Below are positions 51,931-56,803 of a stretch of DNA of 64,000 bases, piece after piece. Origin of the DNA: Leucobacter denitrificans. GTDB lineage: Bacteria; Actinomycetota; Actinomycetes; Actinomycetales; Microbacteriaceae. The stretch is from contig NZ_CP060716.1 in assembly GCF_014396385.1 (NCBI RefSeq), positions 1,178,001 to 1,242,000 on the forward strand, given 5' to 3'. The notes beneath the pieces were generated by a model. It worked only from the letters and a program-made list of their open reading frames with translations, made no database searches and was not told the origin of the DNA. Positions within the stretch are counted from its first letter, which is position 1; every line of letters begins with the position of its first letter. The position numbers and the translations under genes were made by a program.

Positions 51931-53694
51931 ATGGTGGAACAGGAACAGCTCGATCAGCTGATTGCGCACGCAGAACGCTGGGCTGCAGACGATATTGACG
52001 ACCTCACCCGAGCCGAGGCAACACGCCTCTTGGAACACGCACGCGAGGGCGACGAAGCTTCAATTGCCGAGCTCGAAGCCTGCTTTTCCGATCGGCTCGC
52101 CTTCGGCACCGCGGGTCTTCGAGGCAAGCTCGGCCCCGGCCCCTCACGCATGAACCGCATTGTTGTTTCACAAACCAGCGCGGGCTTCGCCGCGTTCTTG
52201 CTCGCCCGGGCGGCTGCCGGTGAGACCACGTCTCCTCCATCTGTCGTCATCGGATACGACGCCCGCGTGAACTCAGACGTCTTTGCAAAGGACGCGGCCG
52301 AGATTATGGCGGGCGCGGGCGTTCGCGTCATCCTGCTACCTCAAGCCGGCCCGACTCCGCTCACCGCCTTCGCTGTTCGGCACCTCGGCGTCTCGGCTGG
52401 CGTGATGGTGACCGCAAGTCACAATCCTCCGCGCGACAACGGGTACAAGGTGTACCTGGGAGACTCAGACGGTGGATCGCAGATAGTGCCCCCGGCCGAC
52501 GCCGATATCGCGAAGCGTATTCTCGAAGCCGCCTCGCAGCCAGTTAGCGAGTTCGCCCGCAGTGACAAGTACGAGGTCGCCGACGAGGAGATCGCGAACG
52601 CGTACGTGCAACGGACCGCCGCGGCCCTGGTTGCCGGATTTGATGCCGACAAAGATGGTGCGGTGCTCGGCAGTGACACCCCACTCACCGTCGTGTATAC
52701 GGCAATGCACGGGGTCGGCGCGGAGCTCGCGCAGCGTGTCTTCCTTGCGAGCGGGCTGCCGAAGGTTACTGTTGTCGCCGAGCAAGTCGAGCCCGACGGG
52801 AATTTCCCGACAGTAGATTTCCCGAATCCAGAGGAGCCGGGTGCACTCGATCTCGCGATCCGCACCGCGAACGAGACCGAGGCAGATCTCATCGTCGCCC
52901 ACGACCCCGATGCCGATCGCCTGGCGATCGCAGTACCCCACCCCGATGCCGAGGGCGGGTACCGCAGGCTCACCGGCAATGAACTCGGGCTGCTGCTCGG
53001 GTGGCGCGCGGCAGAGCGTGCACAGCAGGCGGCCGAACTGCGCAACGAGGAGTTCAGCGGTTCCCTGGCTTGCACCATCGTGTCCTCTCCGGCGCTCGGT
53101 GCGGTCGCACGCGAGTTCGGACTCGACTACGCGGAGACGCTGTCGGGCTTCAAATGGGTGTCTCGCGTTCCGAACCTCATCTTCGGGTTCGAGGAAGCCC
53201 TTGGCTACCTCACGCACCCCGATGTAGTGCGCGACAAAGACGGCATCTCTGCGAGCGGTGACGCCATCGCGATGGTGCGTGAGTGCAAAGCCCGCGGCAT
53301 TGATATCTGGGGTCTTCTCGACGAGGCTGCTGAGCTGTTCGGGCATTTCTCGAGCACCCAGGTCACGCTGCGGCTCGACTCGATGGCTGCGGCTGCAGAC
53401 CTTTCGAGCAAGGTTCGCGATACTCCCCCGACCTCGTTCGGTGTGCGCGTCGTCGAGACTACGCAAGACTTGCTCGAGCCGGGTCTCGCGGAGATTCCCT
53501 CGAACGTGCTGCGCTATGACCTGTCAGACGGCTCGCGCGTCATGATTCGCCCGAGCGGCACCGAGCCGAAGCTCAAGGTATACCTCGACACGTTTAGTGA
53601 TCGTGGCAATGCCGCTGCTCGGCGCTCGGCCGCGGAGAGCGCTCTCGCAGAGCTCGAGACCGACGTGCGGTCGTTCCTCGACAAGCTGCAGTAG
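51931..53694 (+). CDS. Phospho-sugar mutase (phosphomannomutase/phosphoglucomutase)
   Basis: A 587-residue alpha-D-phosphohexomutase that moves phosphate between C1 and C6 (or C5 in pentoses). Catalytic phosphoserine Ser163 in TASHNPPRDNGYKVY; Mg site HDPDADRLAI; sugar loop GFEEALGYL; phosphate-binding RPSGTEPKLKVYL. TAGCTT (51890-51895) is a likely -10; ATG 51931 or GTG 51934 follows a purine-rich AAGGGGGAG. The start is uncertain by one codon; a longer start at 51898 is too close to the -10. Confidence 0.88.
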   Translation: MVEQEQLDQLIAHAERWAADDIDDLTRAEATRLLEHAREGDEASIAELEACFSDRLAFGTAGLRGKLGPGPSRMNRIVVSQTSAGFAAFLLARAAAGETTSPPSVVIGYDARVNSDVFAKDAAEIMAGAGVRVILLPQAGPTPLTAFAVRHLGVSAGVMVTASHNPPRDNGYKVYLGDSDGGSQIVPPADADIAKRILEAASQPVSEFARSDKYEVADEEIANAYVQRTAAALVAGFDADKDGAVLGSDTPLTVVYTAMHGVGAELAQRVFLASGLPKVTVVAEQVEPDGNFPTVDFPNPEEPGALDLAIRTANETEADLIVAHDPDADRLAIAVPHPDAEGGYRRLTGNELGLLLGWRAAERAQQAAELRNEEFSGSLACTIVSSPALGAVAREFGLDYAETLSGFKWVSRVPNLIFGFEEALGYLTHPDVVRDKDGISASGDAIAMVRECKARGIDIWGLLDEAAELFGHFSSTQVTLRLDSMAAAADLSSKVRDTPPTSFGVRVVETTQDLLEPGLAEIPSNVLRYDLSDGSRVMIRPSGTEPKLKVYLDTFSDRGNAAARRSAAESALAELETDVRSFLDKLQ

Positions 53695-53810
53695 CTTACC
53701 CAGCTCCGGCGTCTAACAGCCTGGCTCAGCCGAGCCCGGCCTAGCCCGACCCCCAGCTCCCAGCCTTTCTACCCACCCCGGCCCAGCTCCCACTCCTGGC
53801 CCGGCCCAAA
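53695..53810. other. C-rich low-complexity spacer
   Basis: A pyrimidine-rich stretch with CCCAGCTCC at 53699-53707, 53752-53760 and 53782-53790. No gene. It borders the left inverted repeat of the DUF559 island. Confidence 0.5.
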
Positions 53811-53868
53811 CTTCGAGTCAAAGTTTGCCCTTATCCCTGGCCTCTTGCCAGCAAACTTGCACTCGGAT
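53811..53868 (-). repeat. 58-nt palindromic element, copy A
   Basis: Inverted relative to copies B and C. It begins right after the TAA stop of the DUF559 gene. Read in that gene's direction it starts ATCCGAGTGCAAGTTTGC and ends GCAAACTTTGACTCGAAG. Confidence 0.8.
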
Positions 53869-54777
53869 TTAGGCCGCATGAGTACGTTGGTAGATCGCAT
53901 GAGCCAAACGACCAAGATACTCGCGGGGATCACGAAGATCACGGGCAGTTGCCTGCAGCACGATCCACCCAGCATCGACCATTGCTTCGCGCCGAGACAC
54001 ATCGCGCCTAGCTTGTTCAACTCCGCCAGTGAAGTGGTACTCGCCCTCATATTCACAAGCGATCTTCCACTGCGGGTACCCCAAGTCTGAGTGGAAGAGG
54101 CGAATATTGGTAGGAACAGGACAGCACGTGACGAGGTCGGGAAAACCAGCGCGAAGAATATGAAGCCGCAGTTGGCTCTCAGATGGCGATTCGACGCCGG
54201 TGCGCAAAAGCGGAAGGGCCACGCGCATCTTCTGGGACCCGGCGCACCCCGAGAAGCGAAGCCGAGCTGCCTCTAGCTCTTCCAGTGAACTCAACGGGCG
54301 GCTGCGGCGAGAAAGACCCGAAATGAGTGCGTCACCGACTGCAATGAGCTGATCGACAGTGAGTACGGCCGCGAGAAGTGCCCATACATCGGCTGGCACG
54401 GGAAGCCAGTCTGGTGCGCTTGGCAACTGCAGTAGGCACCCCTCACGCACCCTGTGAGGAGAAATACCTACACGTCGAGGAGGAGTCGTCGGCCAATGGA
54501 CCCCAACGTCAATTGCTCCATCGCCACCGTATTCCGGGAGGTCGTAAAGTTTTGCGGCCGTACGTCGAGAGAGAAAACTGCCTGGTTTGAGGAGTAACTT
54601 CGCGGCTGCAACACGTGTTGTGAATGCGTCCGGATCTACGCCTGGCGCTGGCACGATTCCATAAATAGTGCGGGCCTGATCACTCGCATAGAGTCGGTGG
54701 TGAGGCACACCCGATGCGCGCAAATCAGCAACGCGCGCGATTGGTCCAGATGTGACGATAGGTGGCAGCGGTCTCAT
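53869..54777 (-). CDS. DUF559 domain protein with AbiEi-like N-terminus
   Basis: A 302-residue protein. The N-terminal part (about 1-100) resembles the winged-helix region of AbiEi-type antitoxin-like proteins (ADLRASGVPHHRLYAS, TIYGIVPAPG). The C-terminal DUF559 domain has a nuclease-like pattern: PSESQLRLHILRAGFP, HSDLGYPQWKIACEYEGEYH, and REAMVDAGWIVLQATARDL, compatible with a PD-(D/E)xK/Vsr endonuclease active site (Glu, Asp, Glu). ATG 54777 has TACGGT six bases upstream, leaderless. Base usage is less GC-rich than the neighbours. It has no partner toxin gene and is framed by the 58-nt repeats. Confidence 0.75.
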   Translation of the reverse strand: MRPLPPIVTSGPIARVADLRASGVPHHRLYASDQARTIYGIVPAPGVDPDAFTTRVAAAKLLLKPGSFLSRRTAAKLYDLPEYGGDGAIDVGVHWPTTPPRRVGISPHRVREGCLLQLPSAPDWLPVPADVWALLAAVLTVDQLIAVGDALISGLSRRSRPLSSLEELEAARLRFSGCAGSQKMRVALPLLRTGVESPSESQLRLHILRAGFPDLVTCCPVPTNIRLFHSDLGYPQWKIACEYEGEYHFTGGVEQARRDVSRREAMVDAGWIVLQATARDLRDPREYLGRLAHAIYQRTHAA

Positions 54778-54917
54778 TCGAAAACCGTAGGGGTGGATCG
54801 CACCTCTAAAACGGTTCTCCACAACAGAAGCACCTGGATCTGAGCAATCGCCCACTGTGGACGAGGCTCTCCCCGCCGGACCAGGCAAACCCACCTGGCC
54901 CCCCAAGTATCACGCCG

Positions 54918-54975
54918 ATCCGAGTCAAAGTCTTCGGTAAACCGTGGCCGAATTGCCACAGACATTGACTCGGAT
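54918..54975 (+). repeat. 58-nt palindromic element, copy B
   Basis: Perfect 11-bp terminal arms ATCCGAGTCAA / TTGACTCGGAT. Same orientation as copy C. Confidence 0.8.
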
Positions 54976-54992
54976 TCACTAGCACAACCAAA

Positions 54993-55015
54993 GATGCAGC
55001 TGACGAGGCTGCATC
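54993..55015. repeat. Perfect hairpin between copies B and C
   Basis: GATGCAGC (54993-55000) / GCTGCATC (55008-55015) with a 7-nt loop. Possibly a terminator or structured spacer. Confidence 0.55.
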
Positions 55016-55032
55016 AGGATGCTACGGCCCCA

Positions 55033-55090
55033 ATCCGAGTCACAGATTGCGGTTAAAAGTGGCCAGATAGTCGCAAACTTTGACTCGAAG
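55033..55090 (+). repeat. 58-nt palindromic element, copy C
   Basis: It starts ATCCGAGTCACAG and ends GCAAACTTTGACTCGAAG, the same end as copy A. It forms the right terminal inverted repeat of the island. Confidence 0.8.
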
Positions 55091-55091
55091 T

Positions 55092-55115
55092 TGGTGGAGG
55101 GGTGGGGTGGGGTGG
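55092..55115 (+). other. G-rich tract with quadruplex potential
   Basis: Contains GGAGGGGTGGGGTGGGGTGG, four or more G-runs with one-base loops. It lies just outside the right inverted repeat and downstream of resB. Confidence 0.5.
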
Positions 55116-55138
55116 ATCAGGCAAGGCCCGCCAGGCCC

Positions 55139-56803
55139 CTAGAGCACGTCGCGGTGGGCCTCGCGAAGGTCCTCAACGGCGCGGTCGAGCGATGGGTCGT
55201 CGCCGCGGGCGAGCCCCGCGTACTGCAGCACGATGCCGTCGTCTGTCGGGATCGCCTTCACCCAGACGCGACGCCGCGGCACAAAGAGTGACCAGAGCAG
55301 GCCACCGAGCGAGAGCAAAGCGAACAGCAGCACACCGATCTGGAACGGGTTCTGCATGACGTCGAACGATGCGTAACGCGGCACGTCGGTGAGGGTGACA
55401 GTGCCGAGGCCGTCTGGCAGATCCACCGTATCGCCCGGGCGCAACTCGAGCGAAGGCACATCGATCGCGCGACCTGTCAACTGAGTCATGCCGTCTGTTT
55501 CGAGCACGTAGACCGACTGCGGAATGCCGTTGTCGACTCCGAGGTCGCCCTCGAATGCGTCGAGTGTGAGAACCGGGTTCTCAAGGTCTGGGTAGTTCGA
55601 CGTGTACGCACCTGATTCGAGCTTGGTCTGGGTCGGGTAGAAGAAACCACGCAACCCGAGCTGCACCGTGTTGCCGTCGGCATCGGTGAGCCCGTTGAGC
55701 ACCTTCACGACACCGATGGAGGTGAGGTTTGGATCGGCTCCCTGCGGAATGAACGGCACCGACTCCTCGAACACAACTTCACCGTCAGCGTTCTTAATGG
55801 AGAGTGTCGGTGCGTACCCGTTGGCCAGAAGATAGACCGGCGAGCCGTGCACGCGCAACGGGTGATTCACACGGATAACCTCGCTCGACTCCGTGCCGTC
55901 GGGGCTTGTAAGGGTCATGCTCGCGACGAAGTCTTTGACCTGACCGATGGCGTTGTTGTTGCCGTCGTCTGGGGTGATGTAACTCACGTCAAGATCGTCG
56001 AGCCTGAGACTGAAAGGTTCGAGTGTGGCTGGGTTGAACGCACGACCAGACTTCGCCGAGTCATAGTCGATGAGCTGGTTCACAAAGGTTTCGCCCTCGT
56101 AGATGACTCGCTGTCCGTTAAAGGTGAATGCGCTTCCGAGCCCCACGCACACGAGCACGCCGAGCAGCGCGAAGTGGAAGATGAGGTTACCAGTCTCGCG
56201 AAGGTAGCCTCGCTCTGCCGACACCGAGACCTCTGAAACGCCACGCACGGTAGCCTCTTGCACCTCAACGCGGTAACGCTGGCGCTTGAGCAGCGCCGCT
56301 GCCGATTCGACAGCTTGTTTCGCAAAGCTCTCACGCTCTGCGGCACTCGCCTCAGCGTTGGTGACACGAATCTCAGAGAACCCGGCCATGCGATTCAGCC
56401 GGGCGGGAGTCTTCGGCGGCGTTCCGCGCCACGCCTTCCAGTGGTGCACGAGTCGTGGCAGCACACAGCCGATCAGCGAGATGAAGAGCAGCAAGTAGAT
56501 GGCCGAGAACCAGACCGAGCCGTAGACATCGAAGGCCTGGATTGGGAACGCATCAAGCACCTTGAAGAGCTTCGGGTGTTCCTCTTCATACTGGATCACA
56601 CCATTGGGGTCCGCGCCACGCTGTGGCACGAGTGACCCGGGGATCGCGGCAACCGCAAGCAGGAGCAGCAGGATCAGCGCGACCTTCATGCTCGTGAGTT
56701 GACGCCAGAACCAGCGCCCCCACCCGATCAGGCCGAGTTCGGGGTTTGTGATTGCGCGCTCTGGGGCGCCCGATCCATCATCGTAATCAGAGGGGCGTGA
56801 CAT
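55139..56803 (-). CDS. resB: Cytochrome c biogenesis protein ResB
   Basis: A 554-residue membrane protein of the system II cytochrome c maturation complex, which delivers haem to apocytochromes. N-terminal membrane helices (WRQLTSMKVALILLLLLAVAAIPGSLVPQR, then FSAIYLLLFISLIGCVLPRLVHHW and LIFHFALLGVLVCVGLG), a large outside domain of about 300 residues with NHPLRVHGSPVYL, and a final helix. It overlaps the ccdA gene by 17 bp. A ccsB/resC gene, the usual next gene, is not present downstream; the DUF559 island is there instead. Confidence 0.91.
   Translation of the reverse strand: MSRPSDYDDGSGAPERAITNPELGLIGWGRWFWRQLTSMKVALILLLLLAVAAIPGSLVPQRGADPNGVIQYEEEHPKLFKVLDAFPIQAFDVYGSVWFSAIYLLLFISLIGCVLPRLVHHWKAWRGTPPKTPARLNRMAGFSEIRVTNAEASAAERESFAKQAVESAAALLKRQRYRVEVQEATVRGVSEVSVSAERGYLRETGNLIFHFALLGVLVCVGLGSAFTFNGQRVIYEGETFVNQLIDYDSAKSGRAFNPATLEPFSLRLDDLDVSYITPDDGNNNAIGQVKDFVASMTLTSPDGTESSEVIRVNHPLRVHGSPVYLLANGYAPTLSIKNADGEVVFEESVPFIPQGADPNLTSIGVVKVLNGLTDADGNTVQLGLRGFFYPTQTKLESGAYTSNYPDLENPVLTLDAFEGDLGVDNGIPQSVYVLETDGMTQLTGRAIDVPSLELRPGDTVDLPDGLGTVTLTDVPRYASFDVMQNPFQIGVLLFALLSLGGLLWSLFVPRRRVWVKAIPTDDGIVLQYAGLARGDDPSLDRAVEDLREAHRDVL

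Follow-up and report, generated by a model that had tools for sequence, protein, structure and literature searches.

A predicted AbiEi/Vsr-like nuclease gene of Leucobacter denitrificans and its flanking and dispersed dyads: a candidate enzyme-and-target module

Introduction

When a nuclease gene carries related inverted-repeat elements on both sides and further copies of those elements lie elsewhere in the genome, do gene and elements belong together? The question is raised by a locus in a 64,000-nt stretch of the Leucobacter denitrificans genome (here called the window), where a predicted nuclease gene lies between the phosphomannomutase gene pmm (PF02878) and resB (PF05140), with no further open reading frame (ORF) of ≥100 amino acids between these neighbors. 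The original prediction for this DNA, made from its letters, described a DUF559-type gene framed by three 58-nt palindromes and suggested either a REP/MITE-type system whose enzyme is a nuclease instead of a transposase or a nuclease that recognizes the dyads.

Results

The nuclease gene (positions 53869 to 54777, minus strand; 302 amino acids) is accompanied by three dyads of 58 nt each. Copy A (53811 to 53868, minus strand) lies directly 3′ of the nuclease stop codon, a TAA at 53871-53869 that adjoins it; copy B (54918 to 54975, plus strand) lies ~140 nt 5′ of the nuclease ATG; and copy C (55033 to 55090, plus strand) has the resB stop codon 48 nt away. The outer two are inverted, and A and C together yield a perfect inverted repeat of exactly 20 bp, whose left member (53809 to 53828, plus strand) is the outer arm of A and whose right member (55073 to 55092, minus strand) is the outer arm of C. 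All of these placements, including that of copy A, bear out the original prediction, as does the length of 58 nt; Watson-Crick pairs occur at 15, 19, and 17 of 24 outer positions in A, B, and C, respectively, making the dyads imperfect. On both strands, folding of A, B, and C was more stable than that of dinucleotide shuffles (z scores of −3.2 to −6.8). A fixed dyad pattern with ≤3 mismatches was found at 6 places in the genome when read forwards and at none when read backwards, and an Rfam search of positions 53600 to 55300 found nothing. The sequence CTTCGAG is confined to the outward ends of A and C (53811-53817 and 55084-55090). ATCCGAG stands instead at their inward ends and in nearly all other copies, which sets the two outer halves apart as a pair of their own.

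Judging by homologues and a matching ATG, the probable start of the gene is at 54777 and not at the TTG of the longer, 345-amino-acid ORF that was listed as reaching 54906. In a confident AlphaFold2 model of the 302-amino-acid protein (mean pLDDT, 93.8), fold comparison predicted an AbiEi-antitoxin-like N-terminal half (residues about 1 to 192) and a Vsr/I-Bth0305I-like nuclease half (residues about 195 to 302). The model and the alignment contain a PD-(D/E)xK-type core with the E, D, H, and D residues of the Vsr/EDxHD fold, and E200, D231, H248, D259, and R262 are invariant in 32 of 32 aligned homologues. Superposition of AbiEi on the model was loose (6.2 Å), and Foldseek gave no match in the PDB at an E value of ≤0.001, the best being Rv2827c (7.8e-3). 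One sequence search against solved structures returned a single match, to a solute-binding protein (E value, 0.074), which is no convincing relative, and a second returned no match. The window protein itself reached no model in Pfam or NCBIfam, so the DUF559 name of the original prediction holds only by way of its relatives: MTES_1575 was matched by 23 and DUF559 by 14 of 32 homologues (E value of ≤0.01), and no other Pfam family was found among them. PADLOC gave only weak matches for the 32 family members (mREase_II in 6/32, best E value of 0.00046; PDC-S37 in 1/32). No partner toxin gene adjoins the window nuclease gene, the DUF1814 nucleotidyltransferase operon being absent at this locus.

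A covariance model of the 58-nt dyad, trained on seven copies, found 13 strong places plus one weak one in the 2.40-Mb genome. Three of the 13 strong dyads surround the nuclease gene, and the other 10 lie away from it; with 13 strong places and an empty reversed pattern, the dyad family exceeds chance expectation. Length is exactly 58 nt in 12 of the 13 strong copies, and the remaining copy (L024) is shorter by 8 nt, which is not a helical turn. The arms change in step (for example, CAAAGT/ACTTTG, GCGAGT/ACTCGC, and GGGAGT/ACTCCC), and covariation among the first seven copies was barely above that of shuffles. In 53 other Leucobacter genomes, the window-family model gave no match at an E value of ≤1e-4 among the matches listed, under stricter filters that could miss weak copies in other species, and at the loci of 16 relatives it found nothing. 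Within the window's genome, a paralogue at 1286735 has a second dyad family on both sides, with two more copies elsewhere, whereas our scans detected no dyad on the left or right of L004 (1626588-1627508), a 57%-identical paralogue.

Homologues of the nuclease are present in 45 of 54 Leucobacter genomes (the window's genome counted), and 29 named loci with homologues came from Leucobacter, Ancrocorticia, Schumannella, Microbacterium, Brevibacterium, Jiangella, Brachybacterium, Amnibacterium, and Agrococcus. In 20 stretches of 19 kb (two paralogues from the window's genome and 18 others), palindromes were 14 times denser within 1 kb of the gene (25 in 40 kb versus 15 in 340 kb), and 17 of the 20 loci had one within that distance. 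The 29 named loci, which include nine duplicate places of this set, held 38 palindromes in 58 kb near the gene versus 15 in 269 kb elsewhere. We then compared flanks at the 49 of 54 nuclease loci with ≥500 nt available per side. A strong palindrome was found at 34 of the 49 and on each side at 11, against 7.2% and 0, respectively, in 1466 random placements. At a lower score limit, palindromes of one family stood on both sides of the gene in 24 of 49 nuclease loci versus 0 of 222 control ORFs; palindromes as such occupied both sides in 28 of 49. Homologues are thus repeatedly flanked by matching dyads, a point that the original prediction had asked to have checked. A motif-first test was positive at 35 of 54 loci, which are not independent since several come from sister species, and the inner spacing was equal within 1 nt in all 35; with flanks swapped between loci, 55 of 810 combinations were positive. 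The palindrome scorer misses imperfect dyads, and the window locus itself scored negative in all three flank tests. Four of the 49 loci (L004, L030, L045, and L171) had no palindrome by this scorer, and at L059 the sole palindrome, 578-620 nt away, may be an ordinary terminator.

The two sides of the same gene resembled each other more than sides of different genes did (19.9 versus 7.1; 0 of 20000 permutations), and the opposite side of its own gene was the best partner in 10 of 12 cases. Dyads differed between paralogues in the three same-genome pairs compared. Across genera that include Leucobacter, Brevibacterium, Jiangella, and Amnibacterium, the flanking dyads are lineage specific in sequence yet match across each gene. 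An exact Brevibacterium pattern was matched in three of seven Brevibacterium genomes (3, 2, and 1 copies) and in neither Jiangella nor Amnibacterium, as expected for a lineage-specific family. Protein similarity correlated with dyad similarity over 39 loci, a correlation that shared descent of the hosts may partly explain. As to whether the 58-nt elements are scattered at random without nuclease genes, 10 of the 13 strong copies do lie away from the gene, which would be so for any dispersed family, but dyads are nonrandom relative to nuclease genes.

A further model, R2, came from an alignment of 29 dyads hand-picked from known palindromes, mostly of the GTCA type, with the non-GTCA families (L027/L058, L044, and L057) left out. 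By R2 counts, which include both strands and are partly circular, copies are present in at least 29 of 54 Leucobacter genomes, comprising at least 13 of the 16 with a close homologue (E value of ≤1e-45) and at least 16 of the other 38. Genome G006 has at least 48 R2 strand-matches and only distant homologues (best E value, 3.6e-13); in G022, whose near homologue contains an in-frame stop, no more than 2 R2 strand-matches were among the matches listed. These two are close relatives (91% at resB), and the contrast between them indicates that gene presence is not closely coupled to the number of dyads. Near homologues without any R2 match among the matches listed occur in G026, G033, and G041; their dyads, where seen, differ in sequence from the R2 family.

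Pairing holds for 93.4% of arm cells in the alignment of 29 dyads, where two-sided changes occur in 190 cells versus 52.6 in shuffles. The distance between the inner edges of GTCA and TGAC in 60 elements was 36-38 (n = 32), 47-48 (n = 27), or 32 (n = 1), with none at 39-46, so that this Leucobacter family has two spacer lengths about one DNA turn apart in 59 of 60 elements; most of these loci came via R2, and because that model drew on both length classes, selection was not blind, whereas the distance scan was. Arms measured 23-24 bp in both length classes, and the spacer was free in sequence. When loci of different lineages were compared, spacing differed by 0-1 (28 comparisons), 9-11 (17), or other values (10). 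A turn of B-DNA is ~10.5 bp, and steps of about one turn would keep both half-sites facing the same side of the helix. As described in PMC7319586, AbiEi binds inverted repeats of 23 bp separated by a 3-bp gap, and the gap within pairs of Rv2827c repeats is 13 bp. The geometry fits a dimeric protein that reads double-stranded DNA, in the manner of AbiEi proteins on their 23-bp inverted repeats, better than an RNA terminator.

Among 30 resB loci, pmm was within reach in six, and the nuclease gene lay between the two in none of them (gaps of 202 nt in G003, 218 nt in G017, 384 nt in G004, 712 nt in G030, 755 nt in G018, and 1099 nt in G036). Empty alleles thus exist in relatives, in six of six gaps, as the original prediction had asked one to look for. 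In G004, G003, and G017 (L105, L106, and L108), the gap holds a different palindrome of 62-86 nt, as if the convergent pmm-resB gap often hosts palindromes. In G053, a GTCA-type dyad lies ~45 nt from resB, close to the position of copy C; taken by itself, this dyad is compatible with gene insertion beside a dyad, and the dyads that flank the window gene are intact. G006 carries a distant homologue (L115, 515-1195; 30% identical) beside resB, with pmm out of reach, and the resB neighborhood may have received such a nuclease gene twice.

Comparison of blocks from G008 and G007 showed that seven of eight G008 dyads have a positional counterpart in G007. In three aligned pairs the arms are kept and the spacers differ, and the dyad 5′ of the nuclease gene differs between the two genomes by paired changes. 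One G008 dyad is absent from G007, and no target duplication is visible in this single filled/empty pair, the flanks of which have diverged. A dispersed dyad of B. iodinum has a positional counterpart in B. renqingii, where the spacer differs, and, among the genomes compared, is missing from the closer B. permense, strain UCMA 11754, and B. sandarakinum. Several Brevibacterium species and a few Leucobacter pairs share the neighbors to the left and right of the nuclease gene; overall, any neighbor was shared in 27 of 780 pairs of locus stretches, a count obtained by neighbor comparison after a tblastx synteny count was discarded because GC-rich frames match everywhere. Relatives at an E value of ≤1e-5 were found in 5 of 72,556 plasmid records and 1 of 50,697 phage records. 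The module looks mostly chromosomal and slow-moving.

Discussion

We consider it fairly probable, judging from sequence patterns, that the gene and its dyads constitute one module, in which a cognate dyad-binding nuclease has dispersed targets that it reads by dimeric half-site recognition. Both forms of this idea in the original prediction, a nuclease that recognizes the dyads and a REP-type system with a nuclease for a transposase, are the ones we favor, since homologues are repeatedly flanked by matching dyads and more dyads lie away from the gene. Granted such a module, the AbiEi-like halves of two protein copies would very likely read the two inverted half-sites of 23-24 bp on the same face of double-stranded DNA. 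Whether the nuclease halves would then make nicks or breaks within the unconserved spacer or next to it we regard as evenly balanced, although we take cutting as such to be likely. Less probably, repair of the break might copy arms and even them out between sites, so that dyads would multiply over time and a gene could settle between two of them; spreading by break repair is our guess. Dyads adjacent to the promoter would probably also throttle the gene, by analogy with AbiEi autoregulation. Taken together as a layout like that of a zinc-finger nuclease, with AbiEi heads gripping phased half-sites, Vsr-like domains cutting the spacer, and repair spreading and evening out the dyads and now and then moving the gene, the scheme is a tentative one, to which we give less than even credence. 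Several observations weigh against the module: the nuclease genes at L004, L030, L045, and L171 that lack a dyad by these tests, the mismatch of gene and dyad number in G006 and G022, the near homologues of G026, G033, and G041 that have no listed R2 match, the spacing exceptions (L024, by 8 nt, and the one GTCA distance of 32), the marginal covariation of the first seven copies, the lack of a Foldseek match at an E value of ≤0.001, and the loose AbiEi superposition. A nuclease with 13 or more chromosomal cut sites would, moreover, need control, and we have no candidate for it at hand.

The main rival is that the protein is an AbiEi-type autoregulator, with the flanking dyads as its operators and the dispersed dyads as its regulon, and with a nuclease half that is secondary or acts elsewhere, for example on foreign DNA. 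The AbiEi-like half in the fold comparison suits this account, as do the frequent dyads 5′ of the gene and the repression by AbiEi and Rv2827c of their own promoters via 23-bp inverted repeats, reported in PMC7319586. An operator would not be expected soon after a stop codon, however, where dyads are also frequent (palindromes occupy both sides in 28 of 49 loci), and a regulon should favor promoters. We found 10 convergent, 18 codirectional, and 0 divergent gene pairs around the 28 dyad copies with both neighbors called. The set for this count held 41 loci, among them a duplicate pair (L085 = L020) and several dyads that adjoin nuclease genes; copies A, B, and C of the window and the weak L025 were excluded, and the gene finder relied on a crude GC-position filter and called no gene in three loci. 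We judge regulation unlikely as the whole explanation; it may hold in addition to the module.

It is improbable that the dyads are bidirectional terminators or mRNA-stabilizing hairpins that collected near the gene by chance. Four dyads folded as RNA were more stable than shuffles, 10 of 28 copies lie between convergent genes, other palindromes occupy the pmm-resB gap in G003, G004, and G017, and the G053 dyad sits beside resB, all of which would suit such hairpins. They would have no need, however, of a quantized spacer or of sequence matching across the gene, which was seen in 0 of 222 control ORFs, and a terminator scan called no window dyad while calling two terminator-like sites elsewhere (it allowed loops of 3-8 nt, so that dyads with 10-nt loops could escape). 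An ordinary transposon, with A and C as insertion sequence ends, the nuclease as transposase, and the other dyads as MITEs, is very hard to credit, and the MITE part of the original prediction loses ground with it: terminal inverted repeats and dispersed noncoding copies do recall IS elements and MITEs, but there is no known transposase, copy B lies inside the presumed ends, the location is conserved in one genus, neighbors on both sides stay constant in several Brevibacterium species and a few Leucobacter pairs, no target duplication is visible at the one aligned G008/G007 pair (diverged flanks), and relatives on plasmids (5/72,556) and phages (1/50,697) are rare.

In organization, the system closest to the proposed module is REP/REPIN-RAYT (TnpA_REP, “REPtrons”). 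In both, dispersed palindromes lie mostly between genes, copies from the dispersed family flank the gene for the enzyme, each lineage has its own palindrome family that changes together with its enzyme, and the location is mostly chromosomal. REPtrons encode an IS200/IS605-like HUH tyrosine transposase, whereas the enzyme here is a predicted PD-(D/E)xK Vsr-like nuclease, and the dyads are about 50-80 nt long with no GTAG or CGTC end tag (29 aligned elements, judged by eye), whereas REPs are defined, in PMC3733652, as palindromes of 20-40 bp with such a tag. Spacing quantized by the DNA turn likewise suggests recognition of a double strand and not of a folded single strand. With AbiEi antitoxins (Streptococcus agalactiae AbiEi and Rv2827c), the window protein shares a predicted N-terminal fold, and its dyad family shares two ~23-bp inverted repeats with spacers 10 bp apart in length; it departs from AbiE type IV toxin-antitoxin systems in having no DUF1814 toxin operon at its locus and a nuclease as its C-terminal half, and its repeats are also dispersed and 3′ of the gene. 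The nuclease fold and the invariant E, D, H, and D are those of Vsr/EDxHD homing endonucleases (I-Bth0305I), MTES_1575 Vsr-REases, and DUF559 proteins (VsrA), MTES_1575 itself being described in PMC3710099 as a giant multidomain protein. In homing endonucleases the gene interrupts the site; the dyads here are intact and flank the gene, and the G053 dyad would also be compatible with insertion beside one.

No link between DUF559, MTES_1575, or PF18741 genes and flanking palindromes appeared in titles or abstract openings among the matches listed from open-licence PubMed Central full text, and no such pairing of gene and palindrome was seen in passages of PMC3733652, PMC12907096, PMC7319586, PMC8049555, PMC3710099, and PMC8266576. 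The comparisons, made on sequence, point to an undescribed enzyme-and-target system in actinobacteria. This type of nuclease is frequent in Leucobacter (45/54 genomes), mostly without an assigned function, and the dyads give a subgroup of it a predicted target, specified even in the length of its arms and the phase of its spacer. Should the module spread or maintain its own dyads, then REP-like repeats would have emerged alongside an enzyme that has no relation to transposases. A protein that cuts a free spacer between long half-sites, if this one does so, would offer a natural source of prematched protein/site pairs, one per lineage, and if the reading as a two-half-site nuclease is true, a transposase-independent class of dispersed repeat plus enzyme would be widespread in Actinomycetota.

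Some minor observations concern single dyads and genomes. In a comparison of filled and empty sites between G006 and G022 (200 kb each), the chosen stretches were without a model match. Two close pairs of dispersed dyads in G008 were considered as carriers of cargo and rejected; both enclose short-chain dehydrogenase-like genes (read by eye), so that the pairs look like independent intergenic dyads. One dispersed dyad of the window's own genome, L012, sits at a synteny break. Finally, a second, unrelated palindrome of the TTGACGAGGGTCAA type lies ~230 nt 5′ of the nuclease gene in G007 (L034) and at the same place in G008; it is largely conserved between the two and looks like a regulator's binding site.
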